A model generated the notes under the pieces. It did not search any database. It had not been told where the DNA came from and saw only the letters and a program-made list of their open reading frames with translations. From Gammaproteobacteria bacterium RIFOXYD12_FULL_61_37 (GTDB taxonomy: Bacteria > Pseudomonadota > Gammaproteobacteria > Chromatiales > Chromatiaceae): a stretch of DNA of 64,000 nucleotides. This document shows positions 23,784-58,710 of the stretch, piece by piece. The position numbers were made by a program, and so were the translations under genes. The stretch lies in the NCBI GenBank assembly GCA_001801995.1, contig MGZB01000001.1:186001-250000 (forward strand), written 5' to 3'. The first letter of the stretch is position 1, and each line of letters begins with the position of its first letter.

Positions 23784-24868
23784 GCCGCCGGACGATCACC
23801 CTGGGGATCACGGGCATGAATGCCCGCCCCGACAATCCCGGTCCCGGCCTTGCGGTGGCCCGTTGCCTGAGGGAGGCGCGCGGGCTGGATGTGCGCCTGG
23901 TCGGCCTCTCCTACGACGCCTTCGACCCCGGTCTCTACCTGCCGGAGCTGTGTGATGCAGCCTACCTGTTGCCCTACCCCTCGGCGGGGGAGGAGGCCTT
24001 TGCCGCGCGGCTGGCCCTGCTCCACGAGCGGGAAGGGTTCGACGTGCTGATCCCCTGCCTGGATGCGGAACTGCCGGTCTTCTCCCGGCTCGCGCCCCAA
24101 CTGGCCGAGTGGGGGGTACGGATGGCGGTTCCCGATCCCCGGCAGCTCCAGATGCGAGCTAAGGATCGTTTACAGGAACTGGCGCGGGAGGCCGGAATCA
24201 CTGTGCCGGAAACGCATTCCCTGTTCCGGGAAGACTGGTTCCGTACCTGTGCCGCCGAGGGGTTCAGCTATCCGCTGGTGGTCAAAGGGTTGTTTTACGA
24301 CGCAAGGATTGTCCGCACACCCGATGAGGCGGTCGCAGCCTTCCGCCAGATCGCCGGCGACTGGGGCCTGCCCGTGCTGGCTCAGCGGCTGGCGCCCGGC
24401 GAGGAAGTGAACCTGGCCGGACTGGGGGACGGCGAGGGCGGGCTGATCGCCGCCGTGATGATGAAAAAACGGGCGCTGACGGACAAGGGCAAGGCCTGGG
24501 CCGGGGTAACCATCGAGGACCCGGCTCTGCTTTCCGCCGCCACCCGGCTGGTCGCCACCACTCGCTGGCGCGGTCCGCTGGAGGTGGAAATGATGCGAGC
24601 CCCCGACGGGCGGCTCAGCCTCATCGAGATCAACCCGCGATTTCCCGCCTGGATCTATCTCTCCGCCGGGGCCGGGTTGAACCTGCCGGAGGCCCTGGTG
24701 AGATTCGCCCTGGGACAGCCCCGGGCCGTACTGCCGCCCGCCCCTGCCGGGGTCATGTTCATCCGCCACGCATGGGAGGCCATCGTTAGCCTGGAGGAAT
24801 TCGAGTCTATGGTCACCGGCGGAGGCTGTCTGCCAGGGTCCGCCACTAAGGGGAGGCGTTGCGCATGA
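23780..24868 (+). CDS. ATP-grasp ligase of unknown substrate
   Basis: A 362-aa ATP-grasp enzyme of the CarB-like group. These enzymes activate a carboxylate as acyl phosphate and join it to an amine or thiol. The N-terminal part (ITLGITGMNARPDNPGPGLA) is a pre-ATP-grasp Rossmann-like domain. The ATP-grasp core spans about residues 115-320, with RAKDRLQELAREAGITVPET, the lysine of YPLVVKGLFYDA, and the metal-binding Glu/Asn of LIEINPRFPAWIYLSAGAG. It overlaps the neighbouring genes by 4 bp on both sides. Pairing with a PqqD domain and a PLP decarboxylase suggests a small-molecule or peptide modification pathway. The substrate is not deducible here. Confidence 0.85.
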   Translation: MSRRTITLGITGMNARPDNPGPGLAVARCLREARGLDVRLVGLSYDAFDPGLYLPELCDAAYLLPYPSAGEEAFAARLALLHEREGFDVLIPCLDAELPVFSRLAPQLAEWGVRMAVPDPRQLQMRAKDRLQELAREAGITVPETHSLFREDWFRTCAAEGFSYPLVVKGLFYDARIVRTPDEAVAAFRQIAGDWGLPVLAQRLAPGEEVNLAGLGDGEGGLIAAVMMKKRALTDKGKAWAGVTIEDPALLSAATRLVATTRWRGPLEVEMMRAPDGRLSLIEINPRFPAWIYLSAGAGLNLPEALVRFALGQPRAVLPPAPAGVMFIRHAWEAIVSLEEFESMVTGGGCLPGSATKGRRCA

Positions 24869-26265: not shown

Positions 26266-28474
26266 ATCCCTTCGTGTGCTGACTGCCCGCGCCCGGACCT
26301 TTCTCTCGGGCTACAGCTCCGTCCTGTTCACTGAGCGCCCCGCCGTGGGCGCGCTCTGCTTCGCCGCCACCTGGGCCTTTCCCCGCGCCGCGCTGGGCGG
26401 GATGGCCGCCGTCGCGGTCTCGGCCCTGCTTTCCCACGCCTTCGCCCTGCCCGAAGGGGTCCGGCGGGCGGTGTTCGTCAACGCCCTGCTCACCGGTCTG
26501 ACCCTGGGCCTGTTCCAGCTCTCATCCTGGCTGGGTCTGTTTGCCCTGCTCCTTGCCACCCTGACGGCCACCTGGATCACGGCGGCGCTGACCCCGTTGC
26601 TGTGGCGGCTGGGCGAGCTGCCGGTGCTGAGCCTGCCCTTCAGCCTTGCCCTCTGGCTCTGGTTGCCCATTCAGCCCGCCGCCGTGCCGGCCGCCGGCCT
26701 GCTGCCGCTGATGGTCCTTCCGCAGCCCCTGGCAGATTTCCTCAAGAGCCTGGGCTGGATCTTCCTCTCACCCCACCCCTTGGCCGGGGCGCTGGTGCTC
26801 GCGGCGCTGGCGCTGGCATCGCGCTGGCTCGCCTGGCTGGCGGTCAGCGGCTTCGCGGCGGGCTATGCGGTGCTCGCCCTCTGGGCGCCCCTCGCCGAGG
26901 TTCCGCCACTGGGGTTCAACTTCATCCTCGCCGCCATGACGGTCGGCGGGATCTATGCCGCACCCGGCCTGGGCGGCTTTCTGCTCGCCCTGTTCGCGGC
27001 GGCCCTGGCGGTCCCGATCGGGCTGCTGCTCTCGTTCTGGCTCAGCCCGCTGGGGCTCTACCCCTTTTCCGCCCCCTTCGTCGCGGCCACCCTGCTTCTG
27101 CTCAGCGGGGGGCGTCTGGCGGGACGCGGCATCTATCTGAGCCTTGCCTATCCGGCGCTGCCCGAACGGCACGCCGAGGCCCTGCGCCTAGAGGCCGTGC
27201 GTCTCGGCCCGCACGGCAGCGTGCCGCTGGCCGTCCCATTTCTGGGCGAGTGGCAGGTCTATCAGGGTTTTGACGGGGAACACACCCACCGTGGCCCCTG
27301 GCGGCATGGGCTGGATTTTTTCATTGTCGAAGAGGGCCGGAGCTTTGGCGGCGAGGGCAGGTTACTCACCGATTATCACGCCTTCGGCCTGCCGGTGCTG
27401 GCCCCGGCGGCGGGCGAGGTGGTGGCGGTCCGGGACGGAGTCGCCGATAACCCGCCCGGCGAGGTCAATGCACGGGAAAACTGGGGCAACTATGTCCTGA
27501 TCCGCGCGGCTGGCGGGGTCCATGTCCTGCTCGCCCATTTCCGCCATGGCAGCATCGCCGCCACTCAGGGCGCCTGGGTCAAGGCGGGCGATGTCCTGGG
27601 CGGCTGCGGCAATTCCGGGCGCTCGCCCCAGCCCCACATCCATCTGCATGTCCAGGAAGGGCGGGCGCTGGGCAGTCCCACCCGGCCCTTTCATCTAGTC
27701 AACCTGATGCAGAGGGAGCCGGAAGGCTCCCTCTGGTGGCCCGCCCGCCGTCCGGCCCAGGGGGAGCGTCTCGGCCCGGCCCATACCGATTCCGGCCTGG
27801 CTCGGGCGCTGGTCTTGCCCGCCGGACGGCGGCTCTGTTTCGAGACGCGCGAGAACGGTGGTCCTTGGCGCTACTGGGAGGCGGAGACGGTCATCACCCT
27901 GACGGGGCAGACCCGGCTCGCCGCCGTCGGCGGGGCGAGTGCGGCCTTTGTCCACACCGGGTCGGTCCTGGCCTTTTTCGACCGCGACGGCCCGGCCGAT
28001 CCCTGGCTCGATCTGCTGCTGCTCGCTGTTGGACTGACGCCCCTGGCGGATGCCCGGCAATGGCGCGACAGCCCGCCGGCGCGGCTCTTTCCCGTCAAGC
28101 CCGCGATGCGGGCCTGGCTATGGCTGACCCGGCCGCTCGGCGCCTTCCTCGACTCCTGCTACCAGCGCGCATGGCAGGAGCCGCAGGGGGTTTGGCGTCA
28201 GTCCGCCGTTCATCTCCTCACCCCGGCCCCCGGCTGGCGGGTGAGGCTGGAGACCCTCGCCCTGATCTCACCCCATGGGGGCCTCGTCCATCTCGCCGCC
28301 CGAGGCGGGGCGGACTGTCCCTTCGACCCCGCTCAGGGCAGGGGCTGGCAGCGCGAGATGCGGCTCGCCTCTGTCGGCCAAAACGCCGACGAGGGCATCC
28401 CCGCCTGGAAGGTTACCGTTCACAACATCGACGACATTGCTCGTCTCACTGACAACCGAGGAGAAATATCGTGA
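26252..28474 (+). CDS. Urea-transporter-like channel fused to an M23 metallopeptidase domain
   Basis: A 740-aa fusion. Residues 15-315 form about ten hydrophobic segments with the urea transporter (UT) pattern (SSVLFTERPAVGALCFAATW; PFSLALWLWLP). Residues 340-490 form an M23/LytM-type peptidase with putative zinc ligands in HTHRGPWRHGLDF, VLLAHF and PHIHLHVQ. The C-terminal 240 residues are not recognised. No urease genes are present, so urea uptake for nitrogen seems unlikely. M23 enzymes usually cut peptide cross-bridges in peptidoglycan, and here the domain is presumably periplasmic. Overlaps with both neighbours indicate co-translation with the PLP enzyme and the outer-membrane protein. 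Confidence 0.85.
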   Translation: MTRSESLRVLTARARTFLSGYSSVLFTERPAVGALCFAATWAFPRAALGGMAAVAVSALLSHAFALPEGVRRAVFVNALLTGLTLGLFQLSSWLGLFALLLATLTATWITAALTPLLWRLGELPVLSLPFSLALWLWLPIQPAAVPAAGLLPLMVLPQPLADFLKSLGWIFLSPHPLAGALVLAALALASRWLAWLAVSGFAAGYAVLALWAPLAEVPPLGFNFILAAMTVGGIYAAPGLGGFLLALFAAALAVPIGLLLSFWLSPLGLYPFSAPFVAATLLLLSGGRLAGRGIYLSLAYPALPERHAEALRLEAVRLGPHGSVPLAVPFLGEWQVYQGFDGEHTHRGPWRHGLDFFIVEEGRSFGGEGRLLTDYHAFGLPVLAPAAGEVVAVRDGVADNPPGEVNARENWGNYVLIRAAGGVHVLLAHFRHGSIAATQGAWVKAGDVLGGCGNSGRSPQPHIHLHVQEGRALGSPTRPFHLVNLMQREPEGSLWWPARRPAQGERLGPAHTDSGLARALVLPAGRRLCFETRENGGPWRYWEAETVITLTGQTRLAAVGGASAAFVHTGSVLAFFDRDGPADPWLDLLLLAVGLTPLADARQWRDSPPARLFPVKPAMRAWLWLTRPLGAFLDSCYQRAWQEPQGVWRQSAVHLLTPAPGWRVRLETLALISPHGGLVHLAARGGADCPFDPAQGRGWQREMRLASVGQNADEGIPAWKVTVHNIDDIARLTDNRGEIS

Positions 28475-29352
28475 AACTCGCATACACACTCGCTACCCTC
28501 ACCACCCTCTTCACCGCGCCTGCCTGGGCGGACGGCAATTGGACCAACACCGCCGGCGTCCAGGGGGTTTACGGGGATTACAGCGGCTCTGTCCAGCGCG
28601 ACAGCGTCAGCGGTTACGGCGCAGCTCTGACCTCGGAATACCGGGACAAAGGAGGGCTGACTGTCATGCTGAACCACACGGATGTGCAGATGAAGGCAGG
28701 CAATGCCGATATCGACCAGAATTCCCTGTTCACCAGCGGCAGGCTCTATTCCCACCCCGGCGGCGGGACGGGAGTCCTCACCACCCGGCTGGATGTCCAT
28801 GCCATCGACAACAACGATGCCACCAAGGACACCGACGAGGTGATGGCCTACGCGCCCCAGATTTCATACCTGTCTGCGGACAAGCGCCGCTATGTCGATA
28901 TCGGCTACGCCTATTCGGACTACCGCAACAACCTGAGCGTCGATCAGTGGACGCCCACGGCCGGATTCCTGTTGGGCCAGAACGACTGGCTCCAGGTGCG
29001 GGGCTGGTTTATCGAGCCCTCCAACCCGGCTCGCGCCCAAGGGAAGGATTCGACTTCGGCGGTCGAGGGCAAGCTGACCCACTGGTTTGGTCCAACCAAG
29101 CCGCTCGGCCTGAATAACCTGCGCCTGAGCCTGCTGGCCGGCGAGCGTATCTATGCGGTGGATCAAGACGCAGGCGCGGTCAGCAATCTTTCGGACATCC
29201 AGCGCGGCAGCCTCAGCCTGGGCGGCGAATGGAAGTTCGGCAAGACCGGGTCAGCCATTGCCATGCTGGGACGTGAGCAAAACCGAAATGCCACCATTGG
29301 CGACGATTACGACTTGACCTATGGCTACCTCTGGATCTCAGGCCAATGGTAG
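28471..29352 (+). CDS. Putative outer-membrane beta-barrel protein
   Basis: A 293-aa protein with a clear signal peptide (MKLAYTLATLTTLFTAPAWA, cleavage about residue 20). Alternating hydrophobic/polar stretches and aromatic residues follow, and the last residues are YLWISGQW. A terminal aromatic residue is typical of BAM-inserted barrels. I do not recognise the family. It could pass the operon's product or metal-bound compounds through the outer membrane. The GTG start at 28471 is preceded by AGGAGAAA and overlaps the stop of the UT-M23 gene. Confidence 0.7.
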   Translation: MKLAYTLATLTTLFTAPAWADGNWTNTAGVQGVYGDYSGSVQRDSVSGYGAALTSEYRDKGGLTVMLNHTDVQMKAGNADIDQNSLFTSGRLYSHPGGGTGVLTTRLDVHAIDNNDATKDTDEVMAYAPQISYLSADKRRYVDIGYAYSDYRNNLSVDQWTPTAGFLLGQNDWLQVRGWFIEPSNPARAQGKDSTSAVEGKLTHWFGPTKPLGLNNLRLSLLAGERIYAVDQDAGAVSNLSDIQRGSLSLGGEWKFGKTGSAIAMLGREQNRNATIGDDYDLTYGYLWISGQW

Positions 29353-29879
29353 GGCCAAACGAATCAGGGTCCTCGCGGATGCCACCCGCTCCGCGATCGA
29401 TGCCAATGCGGCTGCGGACCCTGATGCTGGTGCTGGTTGCGGCGCTGACCCAGTCGTCCTGTCTCATGATGATCCCCGGCTTGCTGGCCGGGCACACCAT
29501 GGGCGGCGGAATGGGGATGATGGGGGGCATGGGGAAGGGAATGAACCACTCTCAGACAGCGCCCGCGCCCTACGACAAGATGCTCAATCCCGTCCCCCAC
29601 TCGGCGGCGGCCGTCGCCCAGGGGGCACAGATCTTCCAGGCCCAGTGTGCCACCTGCCACGGCCCCAAGGGGCAGGGCGACGGACCTGCCGGCCTGCGGC
29701 TGAGCCCCCGCCCCGCCAACCTGTCCGAGGTGGTGAAGTCGGCCCATGCCAAGGACGGGCATCTGATGTGGGTGATCAGCGAGGGCGGCAGGATGCCCGG
29801 CAGCGCCATGCCCCCCTTCAAGGGAACCCTCAAAGAAGAGGAACGCTGGCGGCTCGTCCATTACCTGCGAACCCTATGA
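29346..29879 (+). CDS. Met-rich class I cytochrome c
   Basis: A protein of up to 177 aa. A hydrophobic leader (MRLRTLMLVLVAALTQSSC) ends in a Cys that may be lipidated, although the lipobox is not canonical. A linker rich in Gly and Met follows (MGGGMGMMGGMGKGM). The mono-heme domain has CATCH near residue 105 and a Met sixth ligand probably in GSAMPPFKG. Such small cytochromes pass electrons in the periplasm, and the Met-rich linker could bind Cu(I)/Ag(I). The start is uncertain: ATG 29346 overlaps the previous gene by 7 bp, while ATGs at 29379, 29400 and 29406 are also possible. Confidence 0.85.
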   Translation: MVGPNESGSSRMPPAPRSMPMRLRTLMLVLVAALTQSSCLMMIPGLLAGHTMGGGMGMMGGMGKGMNHSQTAPAPYDKMLNPVPHSAAAVAQGAQIFQAQCATCHGPKGQGDGPAGLRLSPRPANLSEVVKSAHAKDGHLMWVISEGGRMPGSAMPPFKGTLKEEERWRLVHYLRTL

Positions 29880-29964
29880 CGAATCTATGCCCGGCCCACC
29901 GGGACGGGCATACCACAGTCCGGCGATCTGAGCCGGGCGCCACACAACTGAGAGGAGAAGACCG

Positions 29965-30279
29965 ATGAAAATCTCACGTGCAATCGCAGCCACGACCCTG
30001 ACTGCCCTGATTTCCCTGACGGCAACAACCGCAGGGGCCAGGGGAATGGGCGGTGGCGGAATGGGTGGAATGGGAGGCGGCCAGCAGGGGAGCATGTCCA
30101 CGCAGGGCAATATGCCTATGCAAGGCAGTCAGCAGGGCAATATGTCCATGCAAGGCAATCAGCAAGGCAATATGTCTATGCAAGGCAGCCAGCAGGGCAA
30201 CATGTCCATGCAGGGCAATCAGCAGGGAAACATGCCCATGCGGGGTAGCCAGCGCGGCTCGCGCAACAGGATGCAGTAA
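29965..30279 (+). CDS. Secreted Met/Gln/Gly-repeat protein, probable metal binder
   Basis: A 104-aa protein with a signal peptide (about residues 1-25). A Gly-Met tract (GMGGGGMGGMGGG) is followed by five near-identical ten-residue repeats of the form GNMSMQGNQQ. The mature part has almost no hydrophobic residues except Met and few charges apart from the Arg-rich end. Clustered Met residues spaced M-x-M are typical of periplasmic Cu(I)/Ag(I) sponges such as SilE- and CopM-like proteins, although I cannot assign it to a family. It has a strong GAGGAGAAG ribosome site and is followed by a hairpin and operator-like element B. Confidence 0.75.
   Translation: MKISRAIAATTLTALISLTATTAGARGMGGGGMGGMGGGQQGSMSTQGNMPMQGSQQGNMSMQGNQQGNMSMQGSQQGNMSMQGNQQGNMPMRGSQRGSRNRMQ
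30103..30252 (+). repeat. Five tandem 30-bp coding repeats
   Basis: Units begin at 30103, 30133, 30163, 30193 and 30223 with CAGGGCAAT, CAAGGCAAT or CAGGGAAAC. They encode the Met/Gln decapeptide repeats of the gene they lie in. The fifth unit diverges at its end. Copy number is likely to vary by slippage or recombination. Confidence 0.9.
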
Positions 30280-37346: not shown

Positions 37347-38525
37347 ATGGCCGACAGCTATACCGAAACAAGCACCCGTTCCTGGGGCAGCCGCGTTGGC
37401 GGTTCTTTCAAGGGCATCATCGTTGGACTGATCATGTTCGTCCTCAGCTTCCCGCTCCTGTGGTGGAACGAGGGACGTACCGTGGAACGCCATCTGGCGT
37501 TGCAGGAGGGGGCTGGGCTTGTGATCTCCGTAGACTCCGAGGCCATCGACGCCGCCAACGAGGGCCGCTTGATCCACACCACCGGGACCGCAATTCCCAA
37601 GGAAACCTTGAACGACCCGGAATTCGGCGTATCCATTGAGGCCCTGCAATTGATCCGGCAGGCGTCCATGTTCCAATGGCAGGAACGCCGCGAATCCAAG
37701 AGCGAGAAAAACCTGGGCGGGAGCGAGACCACGACCACCACTTACCGCTATGAGCGGGGCTGGAGCACCAACCTTATCCAATCCGGCAGTTTTCACCACA
37801 CCGAAGGCCATGAGAACCCTTCCTCCATGCCCTTCGAGTCGCGCACCTTTACCTCGAACAACGCCTCCCTGGGCCAATTCCGCCTGACCCCCGACCAGGT
37901 TGATCAACTCTCCAACCCGCAACCCATGAACATCGGCAAAGCCACCTTCGGTAACCTGCCCCGGCCATACCACCTCATCGGCAATACCCTCTACATCGGC
38001 GCCAATCCCAACGAACCGCGTATCGGCGACACGAAGATCAGCTTCAGCCAGAGCCCCTCCACCCCCGCCTCCATCGTCGCCATGCAGCAGCGGGGCGGCT
38101 TTGCCCCCTACCGGCCCAGGGCGGGCAGTTCGATCCTCATGATTCAACCCGGATTGGCCAGCGCGGAAGAGATGTTCAAGGCAGCCGAGGAGACCAACAA
38201 GATCATCGCCTGGCTCATCCGCGCCGGCGGCTTCCTGCTCATGTTCATCGGCCTGCGCCTCATCCTCGGCCCCCTGTCGGTCCTGGCCGATGTCGTCCCC
38301 TTCATCGGCTCCATCGTATCCTTCGGCACCGGGACTCTCGCCTTACTCCTCGCCCTACCGCTTACCCTGCTGACCATCGCCATCGCCTGGATCTTCTACC
38401 GCCCCTTCCTCGCCATCGGCCTGATCCTGGCCGCCATCGGCGTATTCACCGGAATCTACCGGCTCAAACGCAGCAAGATGGCTGGCACATCAACAGCAGT
38501 GCCGGGGGCGGTGGAGCTCGGTTGA
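37347..38525 (+). CDS. TMEM43-family membrane protein
   Basis: A 392-aa membrane protein resembling bacterial homologues of eukaryotic TMEM43. It has the N-terminal SWGSRVGGSFKGIIVGLIMF with an N-terminal helix (about residues 22-42) and then FPLLWWNEGRTVE. A long extracytoplasmic region follows, then three or four closely spaced helices from about residue 285 to 375. The function in bacteria is not established. AAGGAG is placed 9 bp before ATG 37347. The upstream gap contains a perfect palindrome, CCTGATATTATCAGG, at 37211-37225, a possible operator. Confidence 0.8.
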   Translation: MADSYTETSTRSWGSRVGGSFKGIIVGLIMFVLSFPLLWWNEGRTVERHLALQEGAGLVISVDSEAIDAANEGRLIHTTGTAIPKETLNDPEFGVSIEALQLIRQASMFQWQERRESKSEKNLGGSETTTTTYRYERGWSTNLIQSGSFHHTEGHENPSSMPFESRTFTSNNASLGQFRLTPDQVDQLSNPQPMNIGKATFGNLPRPYHLIGNTLYIGANPNEPRIGDTKISFSQSPSTPASIVAMQQRGGFAPYRPRAGSSILMIQPGLASAEEMFKAAEETNKIIAWLIRAGGFLLMFIGLRLILGPLSVLADVVPFIGSIVSFGTGTLALLLALPLTLLTIAIAWIFYRPFLAIGLILAAIGVFTGIYRLKRSKMAGTSTAVPGAVELG

Positions 38526-45128: not shown

Positions 45129-46103
45129 TCACTTGTATTCGATCAGTCTCGCCTTTCGGCCCCGGATGCGATTCTGGAGAAACCACAACTGGCCCGCCAC
45201 CTCGGAAAACTTGCCCAGGACCAGGAACAGGGCGCGCCAGACGTTGACTCGCCATGAATACCCTCCCCGTAACGCCAGGCGCAGTATCTGCCAGGGATAG
45301 ATCCCGGCCAGCAGTAGCCCCTTGGAGCCAAACAAGGAAACCGCGCCGAGGGTGACGAGGGGAATGATCGCCCCCCAGAGCCAAGCGCTCAAGGACTCCC
45401 GCACCCAATGACGCTCCGGCGAACGGCCATGCAGCCAAGCCCCCTCGGCAAAGGCATGGCCGGCCCGCAGGCTCCTTCGCCACCACTGGCCGAAGCGGGC
45501 CATGGCGGCATCGTGCAGGGTCATCTCCGCCTCCAGACGCCAGATCCGCCAGCCCTGGGCGCGCAGTCTCAGGCAAAGCTCCGGCTCCTCGCCGGCGATG
45601 AGGCTCTCCCGATAGCCGCCCGCCGCCTCGAAGGCATCCGTCCGCATCAGGGCATCGCCGCCGCAGGCACTGGCCTCGCCCACCGGGGTATCCCACTCCC
45701 TGTCGCAGAGAAGATTGTAGATGGAACGTTCCGGGAAACGCTCGCGCCGCCGGCCGCAGGCCACGGCGACATCCCCATGATCCTCCAGAAAGGCGGCGGC
45801 CCGCGCCAGCCAGCCCTCGATCAGCTCGCAGTCCCCGTCCACGAACTGCACATAGGCCAGCCCCTGTGCCAACTCATGCAGCCGCCGGAAACCTGCGTTG
45901 CGGGCACGGGCAGCGGTGAAGGGGATCGACAGATCCAGCTCGACCACCTCCGCCCCCAGGGACCTGGCCAGGGCCACCGAACCGTCTGTCGAGCCCGAAT
46001 CCACATAGACCAGCCAGTCCACCCGCCCGGCCGCCGATGCCAAGCAGAGGCGCAACCGTTCCCCCTCGTTGCGGCCGATGGCGACCAAGCCGATGGCGTT
46101 CAT
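45129..46103 (-). CDS. Family 2 glycosyltransferase
   Basis: A 324-aa GT-A enzyme with the opening AIGLVAIGRNEGERLRLCLA and DSGSTDGSVALARSLGAEVV near residue 35. The metal-binding YVQFVDGDCEL lies near residue 88. Two hydrophobic segments near residues 240-270 suggest membrane attachment. The start is ATG 46103, with GGAGG 7 bp upstream, overlapping the stop of the AlbA_2-like remnant by 3 bp. This gene therefore restarts the polysaccharide operon after the accessory block. Confidence 0.88.
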   Translation of the reverse strand: MNAIGLVAIGRNEGERLRLCLASAAGRVDWLVYVDSGSTDGSVALARSLGAEVVELDLSIPFTAARARNAGFRRLHELAQGLAYVQFVDGDCELIEGWLARAAAFLEDHGDVAVACGRRRERFPERSIYNLLCDREWDTPVGEASACGGDALMRTDAFEAAGGYRESLIAGEEPELCLRLRAQGWRIWRLEAEMTLHDAAMARFGQWWRRSLRAGHAFAEGAWLHGRSPERHWVRESLSAWLWGAIIPLVTLGAVSLFGSKGLLLAGIYPWQILRLALRGGYSWRVNVWRALFLVLGKFSEVAGQLWFLQNRIRGRKARLIEYK

Positions 46104-46690
46104 TCCTGGACCTCCCAATGACCACCCTTTTGGGGGCCGACATACCGCAGCTTCCCGCCTTTGGCCAATTTTGTGCTAGATCGCTCCACCGCACTGAGCG
46201 ACTTCCCGATGGTATCGGCCACCTCGGCCAGCGTCAGGCGAGGATTCCCCCTTATGGCCTGCAAGACTAGATCGGGCGTTTTCACCCGCGTTTCTACCGG
46301 CACATTATCAGCAACACCCGCCAGCGCCAGCTCTTCGAAGGACTTCCGATAAACCATCGCAGTAAACAAACAGCCATCATGGTCATCAACAAAATCGATA
46401 GCAGACCATACAGCCAGCGACCGTTTGATGCCAGTACCCAGTCCGTGATAGGGCAACAGACCTTTGGCCACATAGGAAAACAGAATTGGGTTGCGGTCGA
46501 TGCCCGCCTTGGTGGGCAGCTCGTCGGCATGGAACTGGTTGGTGAACTGGAACAGACGGCGCAGCTCCTCCTTGGAGCTCACTCGCCGTTTATCCGAGGC
46601 CAGCGATTCGGCGTTTTTCACATCCGCCTTGAACTGGCGGGTGGAGTCCTCGCCGAGGGCGATTTGGGAGAGGATGGATTGGGTGGTCAT
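46100..46690 (-). CDS. Internally deleted AlbA_2 / RecG-like transcription regulator
   Basis: A 196-aa protein that joins both ends of a much longer family. Residues 5-30 resemble the start of AlbA_2 (Schlafen-type) proteins (LSQIALGEDSTRQFKADV). Residues 67-85 (NPILFSYVAKGLLPYHGLG) and GCLFTAMVYRKSFEE belong to the distal part, normally about 300 residues further on. A winged helix closes the protein (LTLAEVADTIGKSLSAVERS). The reading frame survived the deletion, so a shortened DNA-binding protein may still be made. It overlaps its neighbours by 4 bp on both sides. Confidence 0.7.
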   Translation of the reverse strand: MTTQSILSQIALGEDSTRQFKADVKNAESLASDKRRVSSKEELRRLFQFTNQFHADELPTKAGIDRNPILFSYVAKGLLPYHGLGTGIKRSLAVWSAIDFVDDHDGCLFTAMVYRKSFEELALAGVADNVPVETRVKTPDLVLQAIRGNPRLTLAEVADTIGKSLSAVERSSTKLAKGGKLRYVGPQKGGHWEVQE

Positions 46691-49600
46691 GGCTCGTCCT
46701 CCTGTCGATGCTCGGCGATGATACGTTCGGCCTCGCGGTCGTAGCCGTCCGCCAAACCTCTCAAGGTAACGGCAAATCGTTGAAAGCCAGCGTTCTCTAC
46801 TTCCTCAGCTTTTCTTCGGAACTGATCAGCCAGTTCCCTCTCCGGCTTTCCGGCTGGGTCAACCCAATGAACACCGCGTGAGTTGTATGTCCCCGTCCTG
46901 AAACCGTTGCGCATATCATCAGCATCACGGTCGTTCAATGCGGCAGCGACAGCGCGGCGTATCCACAATCCGTCTGAATCGGGTGGGGTATGAATCAATA
47001 CTTCGCCAATATTGATGAGTGCTACATCCAGGTGGCCGGATTCTGTGCAGACTTCCTTGACCCTTTGGAGCCATTCGGTGAAGCGCTCTTCGATGAAAGC
47101 CCCATCTTTTTGTGTTCCCGGCGGTGTCTTCCACTCGTGCAATAACCGCCAGGCATTTTCCGCGATTGCCTTTGATTCCTCGGTGGGATTCTTCAACGGC
47201 TGATCTTCTTTTTCGGATCGGTAGATCAGTCGAATTACCTCGCAAAAAAACTCGGCGTCACTGGCCAGTCTGCTTTCAAGGAGTTGGGGTGCAGCACCTC
47301 TATGGCGGTTGAGTAAGGGAACATAGGCCCACTCCACTCTAAAGAGGTCGTCCTGGTTAACCGAAGGCTCTGCCTGAAGAAACTTGATCAGTTCGACAAT
47401 GCGGTACCCGTCCATGGTGTAACTGGGCTCGTTGGAGGAAAGCGCTGCGAGCAACGCTCGAACACATTGATTACTATCGATTGGCTGCTTGTCATGGCGC
47501 ATCCTGTCCAGGCAGTTGATTGCCGCGTGAGCTCTACCATGTTCAATAAGCTTCTCAATAGCAATGGTAAGATCGTCATCGGCCTGATAAGCATTGGCGT
47601 CGGTGCGGGTCCAATATTCGGGCTCGTGTGACTGAAGCCATTCAGAAGCACGATCCCACGTTTCCTTGGAAAATGGCAAACAAGCTAGGAATTCCCCTAC
47701 TTGCTCTGGCGTCCAATCAGATTTATTGATGTCGTCGCACCACCCCCAGCCTTTGAGGTGGTAACGCCGCCAGATAAAACCGCTCACCAATGCCTTGCGC
47801 CTGTTGTCCGCTGAATCCAAGAAGTGAGGCAAAAGGGTTCGCTCAATGACTGAATCGGCAATAACGCCAAGCGCGCGCCCTACCTGACCGGGTGAAGAAA
47901 CGGATTCGGCAAATCGGATGACACCCTTGGCACCATCTTGCTGAAAGATTTCCGAAATGGCCGTTTCACGTCGCGTTTCGAGTTTCTTGCGCTGCTCCTC
48001 CCAATCGCCGTTCTCTTCGTAGAGATCAAAGTCACGATCTGTAAAAAGGTGCTGATACAAATTGAACGAATTTGTGGGTGCAAGCTGTTCGGAAACTTGT
48101 TCAATGCGGGTAATCAGTTCATCGGACAGCGCCCATTTAGCATCTGAGAACCCTCTGTGTTTATTTGTGAATTTCGTTAGGTGGTCCCAAATCGAAAGTC
48201 GCTGCTCTTCAGGAAGTTCCGCAATGGGCTGGGAGGCAAGAGTCTGGAGAAGCTGATCAAAAGATGGTTCGGGCAGCTTGTCAAACTGGTCAATCAACGC
48301 GGAAAGCCGGGCGGTATCTTGACCTGCTGCAGCGACGGCGAGTTCTGCATAGAAAGATGTCTGCTGCCAATATTCCTGATGCGTAACGCCTTTTTCCCAA
48401 TCATCGGGAATTGTCTTACGCCAGCTTGGCTTGTGCGATCCAGTAGATATTTGGTGCTGCCCGGGAAGAAGCTGAATGATCAACTTCCAGGCAATATCCG
48501 GCCATTCATTAAGGATTGTCCGCACAGCCACCTTGCGCTTTTCAATAGATGCCAGCGTTTGCGGTAGCCAAGGCAATAAAATGGTTGCAAGTGAATTGGA
48601 TGGGCGATTGGCCCACTGGCCCCCAGGGTCATGGCTAGCAAGTTCACCAAGCGCAACACATACACGAACTAGATATTGTTCATCCCAGGCCAGCCCTTCC
48701 AGCGCCCAGAGCAGGCCGGCCAAGTAATTGCCGCCGGTAATGCCGTCGCCTTCCTGGAAAAAAAGCTCATCAAATGGACAGGGCGTAAGGCGCATCGCCT
48801 TCTCGACCGCTTCAAGAAATTCACCGGGGGCGGCTTCGGCCAGGGTGGGCAGTAAACCGTTCAGGCTGCCCCAAAGAATCCAGTCAGCATCAGTCAGAAG
48901 TTCACGTATCACCAGCACGCAGGTTGCTTTAGCTTTACCTTGCGAGCAGTTACCACACGCTTCGGGCTGTGTGCCCACAATGGCCAACCCCTCGGCGATT
49001 CCCTTTCGTAAAACACGCGAACAATTCAGCACTTTGCCATGAATGCTTGCTGCGTATCGCTCTTCGGCAGGCAGCTCAAAAGCGGGGTCTGGCTCTTTCA
49101 GTAACGAAACAGCCAGCGACTTAAACGTATCAAGGTTCTGATCGAGGATGCGCGATCCCAGCAGTTTCCAAAGCTCGGCTCGATTAACAACTTTCCAGAT
49201 GCCGTTTTTGAGAGACAACGGGCTGTCAGGGCAGTGCAATATTTCCCGTGCCTTCTTAAGCCATTCGTCATAACTGATGCCGAGCAGTTGGGTTACCGCC
49301 TCACGGTCGCATTGACTTTTGTCTTGCCAAGAGCCGGTCAAAACCGCCGAAGCCAGGTAGGTGGCGTCCGAGTGATGGGTCCAATCGGTTTTAGGTTTCT
49401 CCTGCGCCGCCTTGAACTCCTCGGGCATCTCCGCCACGGCCTTTTGTTTAAAGGCATCCAGAAGATCGTCCGGGATCTTGTCGGGCGTGATGGTGCCGGC
49501 ATACTGATTCCATGTTTGTACGATATCGACAACCCGCGACCAGACCCACTTCGGATACCGCTGCTGGAATTGGGAAATGTGGGAATGCAGCAGAGACAGG

Positions 49601-50229
49601 ACAACACCTAACTCGTTACCAAGATCGTAGCCGAGTAGATGGAAGTGGTTCAGGAAGCCATAGAGTTCGTCCCTTGAAACATCGTTGCCGCCGTTTGCTG
49701 CCTTCAGGTGGTGCTGAATGACCTCCAGTTTCTCGGTACTCTTGGGGGGGCTGAAATTCGCCTGCTGGACGTTTCTGAAAAACTCATCAACGTTTTTGGT
49801 GTACCTCGCCTGGTTCAGCAACCATTGCACATTGTGTGCATCGGTCGCGCTGAGGGGGCCTGTGATCAGGGCAATAATGTCCTTATCTCTTGTGAACACC
49901 TTCGGATTATTGAAATCATTCCAGGCGGCTTGCATAACCTCGCCAAACAGAGCGCTGCGGTGCGTGATGTTAATGGAATGCTTGACTTGCCCGAGAAGTT
50001 TCCGCCGTTCCTTGCTGTTTACGTTTTCTACGACAACAACGAGGTCGTCTGTATCAAAGCCGTCGATCTTGCCCTGAAGTTTGATTTCCGCAATGGGCCA
50101 GCAGGGAAGACAGGGGGCGTGACCGCCGGTGAGCATCAGCGCGACAAATGACGCCTGGACATGCGCTTCAAAATGACCGCCGCCATTGCCGGTGGAAAAC
50201 GAATTGCTGAGTTTTTTGATTTTGCTCAT
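46687..50229 (-). CDS. Large protein with a putative PD-(D/E)XK nuclease N-terminus; candidate defence protein
   Basis: A 1180-aa protein. Residues 17-86 have the layout of Mrr/Cap4-type nucleases: Glu21 in GGHFEAHVQASF, acidic D61-D62 in GFDTDDLVVVVEN and a QVK at 81-83 in LLGQVKHSI. I recognise no catalytic domain in the remaining 1000 residues, which look helical, with many Trp and Leu-rich repeats (about 90-260 and 330-1170), plus a possible metal site CGNCSQGKAKATC near residue 425. I find no Walker A motif, so a STAND NTPase seems absent. Large nuclease-plus-sensor proteins are typical of anti-phage systems, but the role here is inference. It looks AT-richer than the surrounding glycosyltransferase genes. 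Confidence 0.7.
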   Translation of the reverse strand: MSKIKKLSNSFSTGNGGGHFEAHVQASFVALMLTGGHAPCLPCWPIAEIKLQGKIDGFDTDDLVVVVENVNSKERRKLLGQVKHSINITHRSALFGEVMQAAWNDFNNPKVFTRDKDIIALITGPLSATDAHNVQWLLNQARYTKNVDEFFRNVQQANFSPPKSTEKLEVIQHHLKAANGGNDVSRDELYGFLNHFHLLGYDLGNELGVVLSLLHSHISQFQQRYPKWVWSRVVDIVQTWNQYAGTITPDKIPDDLLDAFKQKAVAEMPEEFKAAQEKPKTDWTHHSDATYLASAVLTGSWQDKSQCDREAVTQLLGISYDEWLKKAREILHCPDSPLSLKNGIWKVVNRAELWKLLGSRILDQNLDTFKSLAVSLLKEPDPAFELPAEERYAASIHGKVLNCSRVLRKGIAEGLAIVGTQPEACGNCSQGKAKATCVLVIRELLTDADWILWGSLNGLLPTLAEAAPGEFLEAVEKAMRLTPCPFDELFFQEGDGITGGNYLAGLLWALEGLAWDEQYLVRVCVALGELASHDPGGQWANRPSNSLATILLPWLPQTLASIEKRKVAVRTILNEWPDIAWKLIIQLLPGQHQISTGSHKPSWRKTIPDDWEKGVTHQEYWQQTSFYAELAVAAAGQDTARLSALIDQFDKLPEPSFDQLLQTLASQPIAELPEEQRLSIWDHLTKFTNKHRGFSDAKWALSDELITRIEQVSEQLAPTNSFNLYQHLFTDRDFDLYEENGDWEEQRKKLETRRETAISEIFQQDGAKGVIRFAESVSSPGQVGRALGVIADSVIERTLLPHFLDSADNRRKALVSGFIWRRYHLKGWGWCDDINKSDWTPEQVGEFLACLPFSKETWDRASEWLQSHEPEYWTRTDANAYQADDDLTIAIEKLIEHGRAHAAINCLDRMRHDKQPIDSNQCVRALLAALSSNEPSYTMDGYRIVELIKFLQAEPSVNQDDLFRVEWAYVPLLNRHRGAAPQLLESRLASDAEFFCEVIRLIYRSEKEDQPLKNPTEESKAIAENAWRLLHEWKTPPGTQKDGAFIEERFTEWLQRVKEVCTESGHLDVALINIGEVLIHTPPDSDGLWIRRAVAAALNDRDADDMRNGFRTGTYNSRGVHWVDPAGKPERELADQFRRKAEEVENAGFQRFAVTLRGLADGYDREAERIIAEHRQEDEP

Positions 50230-50318: not shown

Positions 50319-50545
50319 GCCTTCTCCTCCGAACGTAGAAAGCGCGAATGGATCAGCAGCGCCGTGCGGCCCAAATCCGTTGCGTCATCATAGACGCCGA
50401 CATACCACTCCTTGTCTGCGACCTTCTCGATGGCGATCTCGCGCAGGTCGGTGACCGGGTCGTAGCCCTGTTCATAGCTGGCGACGACCACCTCCAGGTC
50501 GGCCGGGCATGCCTGCAATCGGGCGATCAGTTCGGCGACGGTCAT
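50315..50545 (-). CDS. Small conserved-type hypothetical protein (76 aa)
   Basis: A 76-aa acidic protein beginning MTVAELIARLQACPADLEVV, then VASYEQGYDPVTDLREIAIE. The pattern resembles small hypothetical proteins that accompany toxin-antitoxin or restriction-like genes, but I cannot name a family. It overlaps the RhuM remnant upstream and the 30-aa ORF downstream by 4 bp each, so it is part of the coupled accessory block. Confidence 0.65.
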   Translation of the reverse strand: MTVAELIARLQACPADLEVVVASYEQGYDPVTDLREIAIEKVADKEWYVGVYDDATDLGRTALLIHSRFLRSEEKA

Positions 50546-50955
50546 TTGCGTTTTCCCTTTTTTCTCTGGCGTTTAAGCGTCTCCGCCGTCTTTTTCAAGT
50601 CGTCGATATAATGCTGTTCAGCCTGCTGCTGTGCAGCTATACGGCGTTTTTCAGCAAAGCGGTCGTATTTGCTCGTTGGCAAACTCCAGCGCGGCATCGC
50701 GGCTGACATTGGCCGCTCGGTTTGAACTATTCGGAATTTCCTAATAGTTGCCTCGGGCAGCAGCTCTTCGTCTTCATAAATATTTGAAATGTGTTCGTTT
50801 ATGGTCGGAATGGCCACGCCATAGATCTCCGCCATCAATCTCTGGCTCAGCCAAACTGTTTCGCCTTCCAGCCGTACCTGAATCGGGTCATCCAGCCCTT
50901 GCCCCTGACAAACCAGCAGCTCGCACTGGGGGCGCAACTCATCGTTATTCCCCAT
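50542..50955 (-). pseudogene. RhuM-family gene with an internal deletion
   Basis: The 137-codon frame starts like RhuM virulence/defence-associated proteins (VWLSQRLMAEIYGVAIPTIN, then ISNIYEDEELLPEATIRKF). It ends like their C-terminus (YDRFAEKRRIAAQQQAEQHY). Full-length RhuM is about 330 aa, so most of the middle is missing. Residues about 82-98 (PMSAAMPRWSLPTS) make no sense in this frame, but the same DNA in another frame reads NVSRDAALEFANEQI, typical of the C-terminal region. The gene therefore has a deletion plus compensating frameshifts and is probably non-functional. Confidence 0.75.
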
Positions 50956-53940: not shown

Positions 53941-55083
53941 TTGCCGACGCCTATCCATATCTCCCGCCACCTTGGCATCGCCGGCTATCGGGAACTGGAG
54001 CCGGAGTGGCGGCGGCTTGCGGGCGAATCGGCAACCCACTTCCTTCATCACCCCGCCTGGTACGGGGCCAAGCTGCTGGCCTGCGAAGATGACCCCGAGT
54101 CCGTCATCTTTCTCAGTTTCCACTATGAGGGCAACCTGATCGCCGTCGTGCCCCTGAAGCAGGGATTCAAGACCTTAATGCGGTTCGGCCTCGCCTTGAA
54201 CTACAGTTTTTGGGAGATCTACTACCCCAACGAGATGGGGCTTTGCGACATCACCCTGGACAATCGGTTTGCGGGGGCTTCCCTACTAATAGACGCCCTC
54301 ACAGGGAAACTGAATTGCTATCGCCGGTGGGACCTGCTGGAGGTCCCGCACCTGCCGCAAGGATCAGCCTTTCTGGCCCTCATGGCCCGCTCCCGCTGCT
54401 TCTTCACCAAACCCAGCCACGTCTCCAAATACCTGGCGATCGAGGGCGATTACGACGGCTTCATGGCCCGTTATCCCCGGAAATTTCACAAGAACCTGCG
54501 CCGCAAGCTCAACAACCTGCATGGCATGGGGACCGTCCGCTTCGAATATGTGACAGCACGGGAGGAACTGGAGCGGGCCTTCACCAATTTTCTGCGGGTG
54601 GAGGACGCGGGCTGGAAGGGGCGCGACGGCACCTCGATCCTGCGTCAGCCCCGCGTCCTGGACTATTACCGGCGGCTCATGGCGGGGTTCGATGCAAAGC
54701 CGGGAGCGACCGGCGGATCGGGGGAGGTTGTCATCCACCTCCTCTGGCTGGACGGCCACTGTATCGGCGGTCAATTCGCGCTTCATCTGGGAACGACCCT
54801 CTCCCTGCTCAAGATCGGTTACGACGAGCGTTACAGCGCCGAAAGCCCCGGTTTCCTGCTGGTCGATCAATTGATCCGGGAGGCCTGCGAGCGCAAGGGG
54901 ATCGAGCGCATCAGCTTCGTCACCGGCACCCAATGGATGGATGTCTGGAAACCCTGGGAAGAACCGGTTTTCAACGCCTATCATTTCAACCGGACCTTCA
55001 AGGGGCTGTTGTTGAGCCTGACCATGCGGCTTTATGAACGGCTCAAGCCCTATCTGCCATCACGGAGTCAGCCTGAATCATGA
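53941..55083 (+). CDS. GNAT / CelD-BcsL-type acetyltransferase (Acetyltransf_6)
   Basis: A 380-aa protein of the GNAT/FemAB-like group seen in exopolysaccharide loci. Landmarks are EWRRLAGESATHFLHHPAWY near residue 20, RYPRKFHKNLRRKLNNL near residue 180 and KIGYDERYSAESPGFLLVDQ near residue 297. It probably transfers an acyl or aminoacyl group to the glycan. The start is TTG 53941, with AAAGGA 9 bp before it. No ATG fits the N-terminus. The stop overlaps the carbamoyltransferase ATG. Confidence 0.82.
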   Translation: MPTPIHISRHLGIAGYRELEPEWRRLAGESATHFLHHPAWYGAKLLACEDDPESVIFLSFHYEGNLIAVVPLKQGFKTLMRFGLALNYSFWEIYYPNEMGLCDITLDNRFAGASLLIDALTGKLNCYRRWDLLEVPHLPQGSAFLALMARSRCFFTKPSHVSKYLAIEGDYDGFMARYPRKFHKNLRRKLNNLHGMGTVRFEYVTAREELERAFTNFLRVEDAGWKGRDGTSILRQPRVLDYYRRLMAGFDAKPGATGGSGEVVIHLLWLDGHCIGGQFALHLGTTLSLLKIGYDERYSAESPGFLLVDQLIREACERKGIERISFVTGTQWMDVWKPWEEPVFNAYHFNRTFKGLLLSLTMRLYERLKPYLPSRSQPES

Positions 55084-56768
55084 ACATTCTCGGGATCAAT
55101 TACGCCTTCCACGACTCCTCGGCCTGCGTCCTCAAGGACGGCCAGTTGCTGGTTGCCATCGAGGAGGAACGGCTGTCGCGGCAGAAACACACCCAGGAGT
55201 TCCCCCATCGGGCCATCCAGCGCTGTCTGCAAACGGCCGGGATGACGCCGGACGATATCGACATCATCGCCTTTTCCATCCAACCCACATTGCACCTGGC
55301 GACCAAGGCCCTCTACGCAGCCCGGCACCTCAACAAGGCCCTGCCTTTCCTGAACCACGAGTTCGTCTGGGGCTGGGCCCGTCAAAGAACCATCGGCAAG
55401 TGGTACCGTTCCCTTTGGGGCAACAAAGAAAGTCGGCCGCGCATCGAATGGGTCAACCACCACCTCTCCCATGTGGCCGGCACCTTCCTGGTCTCGCCCT
55501 ACGAGGAGGCGGCCCTGCTCTCCATCGACGGCTCCGGCGAATGGGCCACGGCCTTCCTGGGTTACGGCCAGGGGACCCGGATCACCGAATACACCCAGTC
55601 CTTCTTCCCCCACTCCCTGGGCTCGGTCTACGAGGCCGTCACCGCCTTCTGCGGCTTCAAGCCCATGTACGACGAGGGCAAGACCATGGGACTGGCGCCC
55701 CTGGGCGACCCCGACCGCTTTTATCAAGAGGCCTCGCGCATCGTCCATGTCACCGGCGAGGGCCAGATCCGCATCGACCTCTCCTGGTTCGGCTACCAGT
55801 TCTGGGAACACAACTATTGCAGCCCCAAGTTCCTGGAGACGTTTGGCCCGCCGCGCAAGGCAGGGGAGGGTTTCCAGCAAAACCACCTGGACACGGCCGC
55901 CGCCTTCCAGCGGGTACTGGAGGACGCCGCCCTAAAGATGTGCGCGGCCCTGCGCCGTAAGACCCAGGCAAGGCACCTGGTGATCGCAGGGGGCGTGGCC
56001 CTGAATAGCGTCATGAACGGCCGCATCCTGCGCGAGACCGACTTCGAGGACCTCTACGTGATGCCCGCCGCCGGCGACAACGGCACCGCCATCGGCGCCG
56101 CCTACTATGTCCACAACATCACCCTGGGCAACAAGCGTTCCTACGTGCATGACAACCCCTACGTGGGCACCTGCTACGACAACCCCCGCCTCGCCGAGAT
56201 CATCAAGGAGTGCAAGCTCAACGCCGTATATCACGAAGAGATCGAGGAGGAGACCGCCCGACTCCTGGCCGAGGGCAATATCATCGGCTGGTTCCAGGGC
56301 TGCATGGAGATCGGTCCCCGCGCCCTGGGCAACCGCAGCATCCTGGCCGATCCCACCAAACCGCACATGAAGGACAAGATCAACGCCGAGGTGAAGCACC
56401 GCGAGGCCTACCGCCCCTTCGCCCCCTCGGTCCCGGTCGAGCACCTGCAAGCCTATTTCGACATCAAAGTCGAGGTCCCCTTCATGCTCAAGGTCTGCCA
56501 GGTGCGGGAGGAGAAAAAGCCCGTCCTGCAGGCCATCACCCATGTGGACGGCAGCGCCCGCGTCCAGTCGGTGCGGGCCGAGATCAACCCCCGTTACCAT
56601 AAATTGATGATGGAGTTCGGCAAGCTGTCGGGCGTCCCCGTCGTCTTGAACACCAGCTTTAACATCATGGGCGAGCCCATCGTCGAATCGCCCTACGACG
56701 CCATCCGCTGCTTCTTCTCCACCGGGCTCGACGTGCTGGTGCTGGGTAATTACGTAATCGGCAAGTGA
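55080..56768 (+). CDS. Carbamoyltransferase (NodU/CmcH family)
   Basis: A 562-aa enzyme. The N-terminal Kae1-like domain has [40 protein letters not shown] near residue 125 and [16 protein letters not shown]. The C-terminal YrdC-like part has [19 protein letters not shown] near residue 415 and [19 protein letters not shown] near residue 523. The family makes carbamoyl-adenylate and transfers it to hydroxyl groups, in Nod factors, antibiotics or polysaccharides. With the upstream acyltransferase it probably decorates the exported glycan. Confidence 0.93.
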
Positions 56769-56820
56769 GAATGAGGGCAAAAGTAGTCACTGCCATATTC
56801 CTGAAAGGATGTTTTGCTCC

Positions 56821-57225
56821 ATGACCCTTCGAGCGCCCTGTTACAAAGCGGTCCTGTTCTGGTTTCTCCTGGCGCTGGGGTTCTATCCCGCCTTCGCCCT
56901 GATCAACCTGGCCCTCTTCGGGACGGGGGGCGATGTGCTGCTGCCCTCCCTGGACGCCCATCCCAGCAAGCGTTTTTTGCTGCCCTTCCTGCTCGACGAC
57001 TGGCTCCAGTCCCTGCCCGCCGGGGCGGCGCTCGCCACCCTGGTGGTCTTGATCCCCCGGTTGCTTCTCCGCCCCTGGCTCGCCTGGCTGGCGCTCAATC
57101 TGACGATCATCGCCCTCTGCGGCCTGATCTTCTCCCTCCATTGGGATCTCTACGCGGCGCCGTTGCTGCTGGGCAATCTCTTTTTCCTGGCCGGGCGGCC
57201 CTGGAAAATGGGCGAGGAATCGTAG
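56821..57225 (+). CDS. Small membrane protein of unknown function
   Basis: A 134-aa protein with three or four hydrophobic segments (AVLFWFLLALGFYPAFALIN; ALATLVVLIPRLLL; LALNLTIIALCGLIF). No family recognised. ATG 56821 is 11 bp after GAAAGGA. ATG 56809 is also possible but sits directly on the ribosome site. Its stop abuts the start of the caspase-like gene. It may be a membrane partner in polysaccharide export. Confidence 0.65.
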   Translation: MTLRAPCYKAVLFWFLLALGFYPAFALINLALFGTGGDVLLPSLDAHPSKRFLLPFLLDDWLQSLPAGAALATLVVLIPRLLLRPWLAWLALNLTIIALCGLIFSLHWDLYAAPLLLGNLFFLAGRPWKMGEES

Positions 57226-58710
57226 ATGGTCTTCTCGTTGTCTTCGTATATTCACCCTAATCTTGTAGGTTGGGTTAGGCGGTATTCCCGCCGTAACCCA
57301 ACAGGCAGCGCCGGGTGGCTCCTGCTCCTCGCACTCTTTTTTATTTCGGCACAGGCCCAGGAATCCGTCCTGCTCATCGGCGGGGGGGATCAGTTGACCC
57401 AGTCGCAGATCTCCATCGAGAAGAACAGCGCCTGGATCCTGTCGTACCTGAAGGGCTACCCCGTCCAGATCCTCTACACGGATGGCAACGACCCGGCCTC
57501 CGATGTCTTCCAGGTCATAGAGCCCCAATCGACCCTCGACCGCTTGAATCTCCTCTTCGCTGACAGGGATGAGCTGCACAGGTACACAAACAGCTGCCTG
57601 GGCAATGGGGTGGAGCCCTCGACGGCCGCGAGTGCCAAGGGGAGGCTTGCCCAGTTGCTCTCCGGGCAGGGCCCGGACCGGGGCCTGACCCTCATCTATC
57701 AGGGCCATGGGGACTTCTCACCCCAGGGCACCAACAACAATTACCTGCGCCTCTGGGGAGAGACCCGGCTGCCGGCGCTAGAGTTGTCGCGGATACTTGC
57801 CGACAACAACCGGGGCAGCCGTTTCCGGTTCCTTTTCACCCAGTGCTTCTCCGGCTCCTTCGCCCGGCTCATCTACCGGGAGATGGACCCGAAACAGGGA
57901 CTGACGGTCGACACCCGCTGCGGCTTCGTCTCTCAGCTCGAATTCCTCCCCTCCGAGGGCTGCACCCCTTCGGTGAACGAGGCGGGCTACCGCGACTACT
58001 CCACCTATTTCTTCGAGGCCATGAACGGCGTCCGCCGCACCGGCGAGCCCTTGCCCGAGGCCCCGGACTTCAATCGTGACGGACGGGTCAGCCTGCGGGA
58101 GGCCCATCTCTATACCCTGAGAAACGCCCACAGCGTCGATTACTCCACGGCGACCAGCGAGGACTATCTGCACCGCTGGGCCAAGTGGTACAGCCGCTGG
58201 CTCCCCGCCAGGGTGGACAAGGAGAACGACTATTACCGGGCAGCCGCGAAGATCGCCGGGGGCATCAGCGGCGGCTTGCTGGAATCTCCCGCGGAACGCC
58301 ACGCCCTGCTGGCGCGCAAGCGGGCCGAGTTCCATCAGATGGAACAGGCATTGACGGCGAGCCAGGCCGAGTACCGGAAACAGAGGTCCGAACTGGCGCA
58401 ATCCCTGAAGAACCAATGGCCCTGGCTGCCCGGCCATGCCAAGGGAACCGATGCCAGGGAGACGGAGTTCAAGGCCATCCAGGCCCAGCTCGACAGGCAG
58501 CTCACCGGGAGCCGGTTCCTCGAACTCAGGACAGCCATCCATCGTGACCTGCCGCGAAAGACGGATCTGGAGCGGGAGATCGCCCAGATCGTCAAGATCG
58601 ACCGCATGCTGGAACTGGCCCGGTTCCGGGCCCTGTTCGACCGCCTGGCGAGCGACACAGAGAAGGCCGAATACCAGCGGCTCCTCGCTTGCGAAGACAG
58701 CTTCCTCTGA
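57226..58710 (+). CDS. Secreted caspase-like (clan CD) peptidase with an EF-hand loop
   Basis: A 494-aa protein. After an odd 30-residue N-terminus comes a signal helix (GWLLLLALFFISAQAQ) and a caspase-like fold: ESVLLIGGGDQLTQSQ, the catalytic His161 in IYQGHGDFSP and Cys207 in FLFTQCFSGSF. Further on, DFNRDGRVSLREAH is a complete 12-residue EF-hand loop (D-x-N-x-D-G-x-V-S-x-x-E), so calcium may control it. The C-terminal 130 residues are charged and helical. It lies in a polysaccharide operon and is probably periplasmic. ATG 57226 has GAGGA 8 bp upstream. A REP-like repeat forms part of its leader. Confidence 0.82.
   Translation: MVFSLSSYIHPNLVGWVRRYSRRNPTGSAGWLLLLALFFISAQAQESVLLIGGGDQLTQSQISIEKNSAWILSYLKGYPVQILYTDGNDPASDVFQVIEPQSTLDRLNLLFADRDELHRYTNSCLGNGVEPSTAASAKGRLAQLLSGQGPDRGLTLIYQGHGDFSPQGTNNNYLRLWGETRLPALELSRILADNNRGSRFRFLFTQCFSGSFARLIYREMDPKQGLTVDTRCGFVSQLEFLPSEGCTPSVNEAGYRDYSTYFFEAMNGVRRTGEPLPEAPDFNRDGRVSLREAHLYTLRNAHSVDYSTATSEDYLHRWAKWYSRWLPARVDKENDYYRAAAKIAGGISGGLLESPAERHALLARKRAEFHQMEQALTASQAEYRKQRSELAQSLKNQWPWLPGHAKGTDARETEFKAIQAQLDRQLTGSRFLELRTAIHRDLPRKTDLEREIAQIVKIDRMLELARFRALFDRLASDTEKAEYQRLLACEDSFL
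57269..57302. repeat. REP-like inverted repeat inside the caspase-like gene leader
   Basis: GTTGGGTTA at 57269 pairs with TAACCCAAC at 57294, with an inner GGCGG/CCGCC stem and one bulged base. This is the core of a common proteobacterial intergenic repeat (GTAGGTTGGGTTA...). Here it is translated as part of the N-terminal 30 residues of the peptidase. Confidence 0.8.

Follow-up and report, generated by a model that had tools for sequence, protein, structure and literature searches.

To our knowledge, most of the caspase relatives known from bacteria are orthocaspases without defined partners. Two families with a His/Cys dyad offer the closest points of comparison for the protein described here: peptidase family C13 (PF01650), which includes legumain, GPI8 and the bacterial proteins labelled L044-L046 below, and family C14 (PF00656), which comprises orthocaspases and metacaspases such as GSU0716 (3bij). 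Metacaspases, which are fold relatives, are switched on by calcium (PMC5756287), and EF-hand motifs have been reported in seven archaeal orthocaspases or domain combinations (PMC6426788). With respect to gene content, the nearest described arrangements are pairs of NodU/CmcH-type carbamoyltransferase and GNAT-type acyltransferase genes in glycan clusters.

Here we describe a 494-amino-acid caspase-like protein with a calcium loop, delineated from its open reading frame and family alignments at positions 57226-58710 (+) of a 64,000-nucleotide stretch of a gammaproteobacterial genome (the whole stretch is hereafter the window). It is the last gene of a conserved four-gene cassette, and it is most likely a calcium-stabilised periplasmic cysteine peptidase serving that envelope-modification cassette. 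An exported caspase relative whose calcium loop and partners are both fixed in evolution provides a concrete handle on the role of such enzymes, since the four-gene unit yields a testable hypothesis of a single pathway and the loop offers a target for point mutations.

Sequence features and distribution of the caspase-like protein

The N-terminus is a signal peptide-like segment (WLLLLALFFISAQAQE), which we read as a signal peptide of residues 1-45 (57226-57360, +) with probable cleavage after AQA (SAQA/QES). A 12-residue stretch with mean hydropathy above 1.8 lies just before the IGGG strand in 30 of 36 homologues, supporting as a family-wide feature the signal helix that had been proposed from the sequence alone, and we infer that the protein is exported across the inner membrane into the periplasm. 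Much of the N-terminal region preceding this helix consists of a REP-like interspersed palindromic repeat (57259-57312, +) that is read in frame as part of the signal-peptide n-region and has 11 further matches elsewhere in the genome, 87-100% identical. The hydrophobic segment downstream of it is genuine, as its family-wide conservation indicates. The gene of a sister species lacks this repeat at the n-region position and carries a different in-frame insert (L007:7960-9525, residues ~193-222, ~24 residues net, ENRGQTTIIRDDASGPEPRAPNNRGLSPI), which directly precedes the strand leading to the catalytic Cys and resembles another dispersed element.

The candidate catalytic residues are His161, in the GHG motif within IYQGHGD (codon 57706-57708, +), and Cys207, the putative nucleophile, in the QC[FY]SG motif within FTQCFSG (codon 57844-57846, +). 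We aligned 36 homologues, all of them gammaproteobacterial and with one order dominating, among which Cys207 is kept in 35, His161 in 34, and the full dyad in 34, including the window protein. The positions assigned to the dyad by the sequence-only reading were thus right, and their conservation is not a matter of chance. The protein has five cysteines (124, 207, 232, 246 and 489), and the conserved pair Cys232 and Cys246 (RCGF ... EGC; 57919-57963, +; 36/36 and 35/36, respectively) possibly forms a disulfide in the exported protein. The helical C-terminal region (residues ~350-490; 58273-58695, +), probably a coiled coil, ends in an invariant Cys489-Glu490 (Cys489 in 36/36) and was the only part modelled by AlphaFold2 with moderate confidence (blocks up to 74).

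Profile searches found clear carriers in 14 of 369 gammaproteobacterial genomes and in 22 of 48 genomes from the order of G200, whereas a 398-genome draw of the phylum gave no clear carrier outside Gammaproteobacteria. The viral contigs and plasmids searched held no relatives. The sister-species copy is 74-79% identical to the window protein.

The dyad also bears on the reading that the caspase core of this family binds without cutting, as a pseudo-enzyme or scaffold, which we consider very unlikely. Two members would fit it, since His and Cys are missing from L133, and His from L042, while each retains the loop and, encoded upstream, the membrane protein described below, yet the full dyad persists in 34 of 36 homologues and both dyad-poor members lie in loci without a carbamoyltransferase. 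The L133 protein (L133:7398-8918, from G824), with GLG and QSHSG in place of the dyad motifs, is a natural pseudo-enzyme; it has kept its calcium loop, its locus still has the membrane protein upstream, and no carbamoyltransferase gene adjoins it. Dyad loss was seen in 2/12 loci without the carbamoyltransferase and in 0/24 with it (p ~0.1 by hand), numbers too small to support an association between the two losses.

Relationship to clan CD peptidases

Searches of Pfam, NCBIfam and PADLOC, including the PADLOC defence models, returned no family for the caspase-like protein, and the initial assignment as caspase-like was therefore based on motifs only. Pfam C14 gave no match for any of five members even at E 10, placing the protein below every Pfam threshold for that family; Pfam C13 matched neither this protein nor any other in the genome; and the C-terminal half has no Pfam match and no recognised p10.

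Profile-profile comparison with hhalign gave a different picture. Against C13 proteins of related genomes the probabilities were 95-96% over 164-167 columns, with the core alignable over 164 columns (96%), the HG and CxSG motifs at matching positions, and a Cys common to both families in the segment that follows the catalytic strand (SFGC in C13, EGC here). Against C14 they were 92-94% (E 1.6e-7 to 4.9e-7, 137 columns) with the dyad columns aligned, while two unrelated controls scored 1.1% and 0.2%. A homologous core with a His-Cys dyad is thus shared with both families. The family nevertheless differs from C13 in its own N-terminal GGG...SQ..IE.N motif, its C-terminal helical region, its calcium loop, its gene neighbours and the missing Pfam C13 score, and from C14 in its fixed cassette partners.

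Structural comparisons were more equivocal. A 16-member profile matched the metacaspase-like GSU0716 (3bij; E 0.003) and metacaspase-4 (E 0.02) in the PDB with the dyad aligned, and the metacaspase match was lost with the 36-member profile; we attribute this loss to the dominance of one order in the larger alignment and take it as a reason for caution. AlphaFold2, run with two sequences only, gave pLDDT values of 37 for the full length and 33 for residues 44-335, although the strand-helix order around both motifs in the first of these low-confidence runs fits clan CD. Taken together, the profile comparisons (C13 96%, C14 92%) indicate that the caspase (clan CD) core is very likely, as the sequence-only reading had proposed. 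We predict an exported cysteine peptidase of clan CD, in a family missing from the libraries searched, and give this reading as a whole, with the mechanism set out below, somewhat better than even credence.

The calcium loop

A 12-residue EF-hand-type loop, DFNRDGRVSLRE, occupies residues 281-292 (58066-58101, +) and starts 74 residues after Cys207 in most members. The pattern D-x-[DNS]-x-[DNS]-x-x-x-[STDNEG]-x-x-[ED], with ligands at positions 1, 3, 5, 9 and 12, is present in 33 of 36 homologues, bearing out the description of a canonical calcium loop and the expectation that its residues be conserved in the family. Loop positions 1, 5, 6 and 12 fall within the 8-12% most conserved columns of the alignment, and positions 3 and 9 rank at 23% and 30%. 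Positions 2 and 4, which are not ligands, and position 7, which in EF-type loops binds metal through its backbone, are among the most variable columns (88th-94th percentile). This combination of conserved ligand positions and variable others is what metal binding would lead one to expect, and it shows directly that the metal-ligand pattern, rather than the stretch of sequence, is under selection.

The earlier description of a complete EF-hand goes too far. The loop is present and an exit helix is predicted at residues 290-300 (AlphaFold2, low confidence), but no adjoining entry helix is predicted: the helix upstream (STYFFEAMNG, residues 258-267) ends ~12-13 residues before the loop, with prolines between. 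Because of this distance and the intervening prolines, we describe the feature as a lone EF-hand-like loop with an exit helix instead of a complete helix-loop-helix.

A calcium-gated caspase-like enzyme among glycan genes had been called unusual, which the comparisons sustain in part. Of the 36 C14 proteins from the class in which a dyad could be recognised, 5 have an EF-type loop 59-96 residues after the Cys, directly following the last core helix (for example LKGLRGAADTGTRDFDSDGVVSLHELIDYV in L065). The alignment with C14 stops at the helix that in each family precedes the loop, and L061, the C14 protein matched, carries an EF loop at this very place. Archaeal orthocaspases, compared here by their published description (PMC6426788), likewise join a caspase core to an EF-hand motif, although they are archaeal and are reported as seven domain combinations, with no cassette. 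Caspase core plus EF loop is thus a recurrent design of prokaryotic caspase relatives, and what is distinctive here is the near-universal conservation of the loop together with export.

Whether the loop gates activity is a separate question. Because the sites through which calcium switches on metacaspases are other sites (PMC5756287), the p20 site and the 280-loop, both of which differ from the EF-type loop here, gating of activity is plausible by analogy alone, and we regard it as doubtful. A structural or folding role, which we favour over gating, has about an even chance, and we give equal weight to its strictest form, in which the loop serves structure only, is permanently occupied outside the cytoplasm, and has no gating function. 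Calcium loops of this kind are found in dockerins and many other extracellular proteins. The single lone loop does not form a cooperative EF pair, and three members without the loop (L031 and L032, from two related genomes, and L118) keep the dyad, showing that calcium is not universally needed. The dyad-poor L042 and L133 both retain the loop, indicating that its role is independent of catalysis. The activation of metacaspases by calcium (PMC5756287) leaves room for regulation all the same.

A four-gene cassette

The conserved unit, which was absent from the sequence-only reading, is a cassette of four co-directional genes. Gene 1 (53941-55083, +) encodes a 380-aa GNAT-type acyltransferase (Acetyltransf_6, PF13480; E 6.5e-26). 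Gene 2 (55080-56768, +), which overlaps it by 4 nt, encodes a 562-aa NodU/CmcH-type carbamoyltransferase with both Pfam domains above cut-off (PF16861, E 1.6e-71, 239.8 bits; PF02543, E 3.7e-64, 217.8 bits). Gene 3 (56809-57225, +) encodes a hydrophobic membrane protein of about 138-140 aa without a family in Pfam, NCBIfam or PADLOC, and its stop codon lies immediately before the ATG of the caspase-like gene; in many other loci the two genes likewise abut or overlap. Genes 1 and 2 resemble the NodU/CmcH and GNAT pairs of glycan clusters, to which the cassette adds a membrane protein and an exported caspase-like enzyme. In the literature we found no description of this four-gene unit or of a link between caspases and carbamoyltransferases.

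The order GNAT, carbamoyltransferase, membrane protein and caspase-like protein recurs across families beside unrelated flanks. A homologue of the membrane protein lies upstream of the caspase-like gene in 31 of 36 loci. Its profile gave nine strong matches in 369 genomes, all in carriers of the caspase-like gene, and also recovered it in 20 of 20 new loci from the order of G200; as the profile was built from caspase-like loci and none of these 20 were used in building it, the latter is the cleaner test. The carbamoyltransferase lies within the locus in 24 of 36 cases, and in G089 the end of a different contig carries it together with the membrane protein. Cassette orthologues of this enzyme share 53-64% identity, compared to about 42% or less for other full-length matches, and the distinct clade at or above 53% spans eight genomes, seven of which have the caspase-like gene. 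The exception, G128, has only the GNAT and carbamoyltransferase pair, without genes 3 and 4, adjoining what appear from sequence to be sugar-nucleotide dehydrogenase and glycosyltransferase genes. The GNAT gene precedes the carbamoyltransferase gene in L007, L035, L037, L040, L043 and the loci from the order of G200, and in G065 and G327 it follows the caspase-like gene instead of opening the block.

The cassette is not obligatory, given that five genomes (L033, L034, L036, L039 and L041) have the caspase-like gene alone, without the membrane protein or carbamoyltransferase. These cases, 5 of 16 divergent loci, in which the gene sits beside clpB, an oxidoreductase or other unrelated genes, could reflect a free-standing exported orthocaspase-like protease of a general stress or cell-death type, for which both the cassette and the polysaccharide placement would be incidental; C14 caspases occur commonly in the class, in 20 of 114 genomes, and four are encoded elsewhere in the window genome. 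We consider this explanation rather unlikely in view of the membrane protein in 31 of 36 loci and the dedicated carbamoyltransferase clade in 24 of 36, as well as a kept gene order and abutting or overlapping reading frames that would be hard to obtain by chance.

The same partners invite a second alternative, in which the enzyme would be a transamidase, akin to a sortase, of clan CD: Cys207 would form a thioester with an exported protein and pass that protein on to an acceptor glycan, carbamoylated and acylated, that the two cytoplasmic cassette enzymes supply, on the model of GPI8 (C13) and PorU (C25). In its favour, the profile matches the C13 group best, the GPI transamidase subunit belongs to that family, and the gene is associated with sugar-modifying enzymes and export. 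The acceptor route would nonetheless be missing in the 12 of 36 loci without a carbamoyltransferase, and the bacterial C13 proteins aligned are not known transamidases; we judge this reading unlikely. The broader proposal that the whole cassette is an envelope protein-anchoring or maturation machine, in which a calcium-requiring clan CD transamidase docked on its own membrane partner links or cuts exported proteins at such a glycan, appears to us very improbable.

The reading we prefer remains a calcium-stabilised periplasmic peptidase serving the cassette. The protein would cross the inner membrane by means of its signal peptide and, in the periplasm, form disulfides and bind Ca2+, which would stabilise the end of the caspase fold such that the enzyme reaches its complete fold only once it has left the cytoplasm. 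There its partner or its target may be the membrane protein encoded immediately upstream. The cytoplasmic GNAT and carbamoyltransferase would modify a sugar or glycolipid precursor by acylation and carbamoylation, and the peptidase would mature or control an envelope protein that handles the modified product. The neighbouring exopolysaccharide would itself not be required.

Polysaccharide context and other observations

The window contains a polysaccharide cluster with EpsE-like, EpsU-like and XrtA-associated ATPase-like genes (NCBIfam), and a glycosyltransferase followed by a Wzy-like ligase lies downstream of the cassette. The placement of the caspase-like gene in a polysaccharide operon, as originally described, applies to this genome and its sister species, in which the cassette is intact yet the next downstream gene differs, but not to most homologues, in which the cassette stands by itself beside unrelated genes or the caspase-like gene stands alone. 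In the order of G200, apparent housekeeping genes (pta, trpS and an asparaginase-like gene) flank the cassette and there is no glycan cluster, indicating that the cluster in the window is local context. A conserved polysaccharide operon was rejected as the general setting, as no glycan cluster adjoins the cassette in most homologues. What links the cassette to glycans is the naming of the partner families together with two local clusters, in the window and in G128.

Several further features of the window and its genome may be of interest. Two genes interrupt the exopolysaccharide cluster (46100-50229, -), one for a 1180-aa protein that neither Pfam nor PADLOC matched and one for a 196-aa winged-helix protein, in an arrangement reminiscent of a defence-type insertion. 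A short reading frame nearby (50542-50955, -) matches several far longer PADLOC models of PDC-S05/PDC-S23, which we take to be RhuM-like, over its first ~80 residues before diverging, and is probably a gene remnant. A bacterial TMEM43 homologue (37347-38525, +; PF07787, E 3.6e-79) adjoins the same cluster. Further upstream, an odd co-directional set (23001-29968, +) combines PqqD/TetR-domain, ATP-grasp-like and diaminopimelate-decarboxylase-like genes with one in which a urea transporter is joined to an M23 peptidase domain; genes for two unknown proteins come next. The same genome has, outside the window, a group of four C14 caspase-domain genes within ~8 kb (G000:C7:4857-13017), and the sister species has eight matches.
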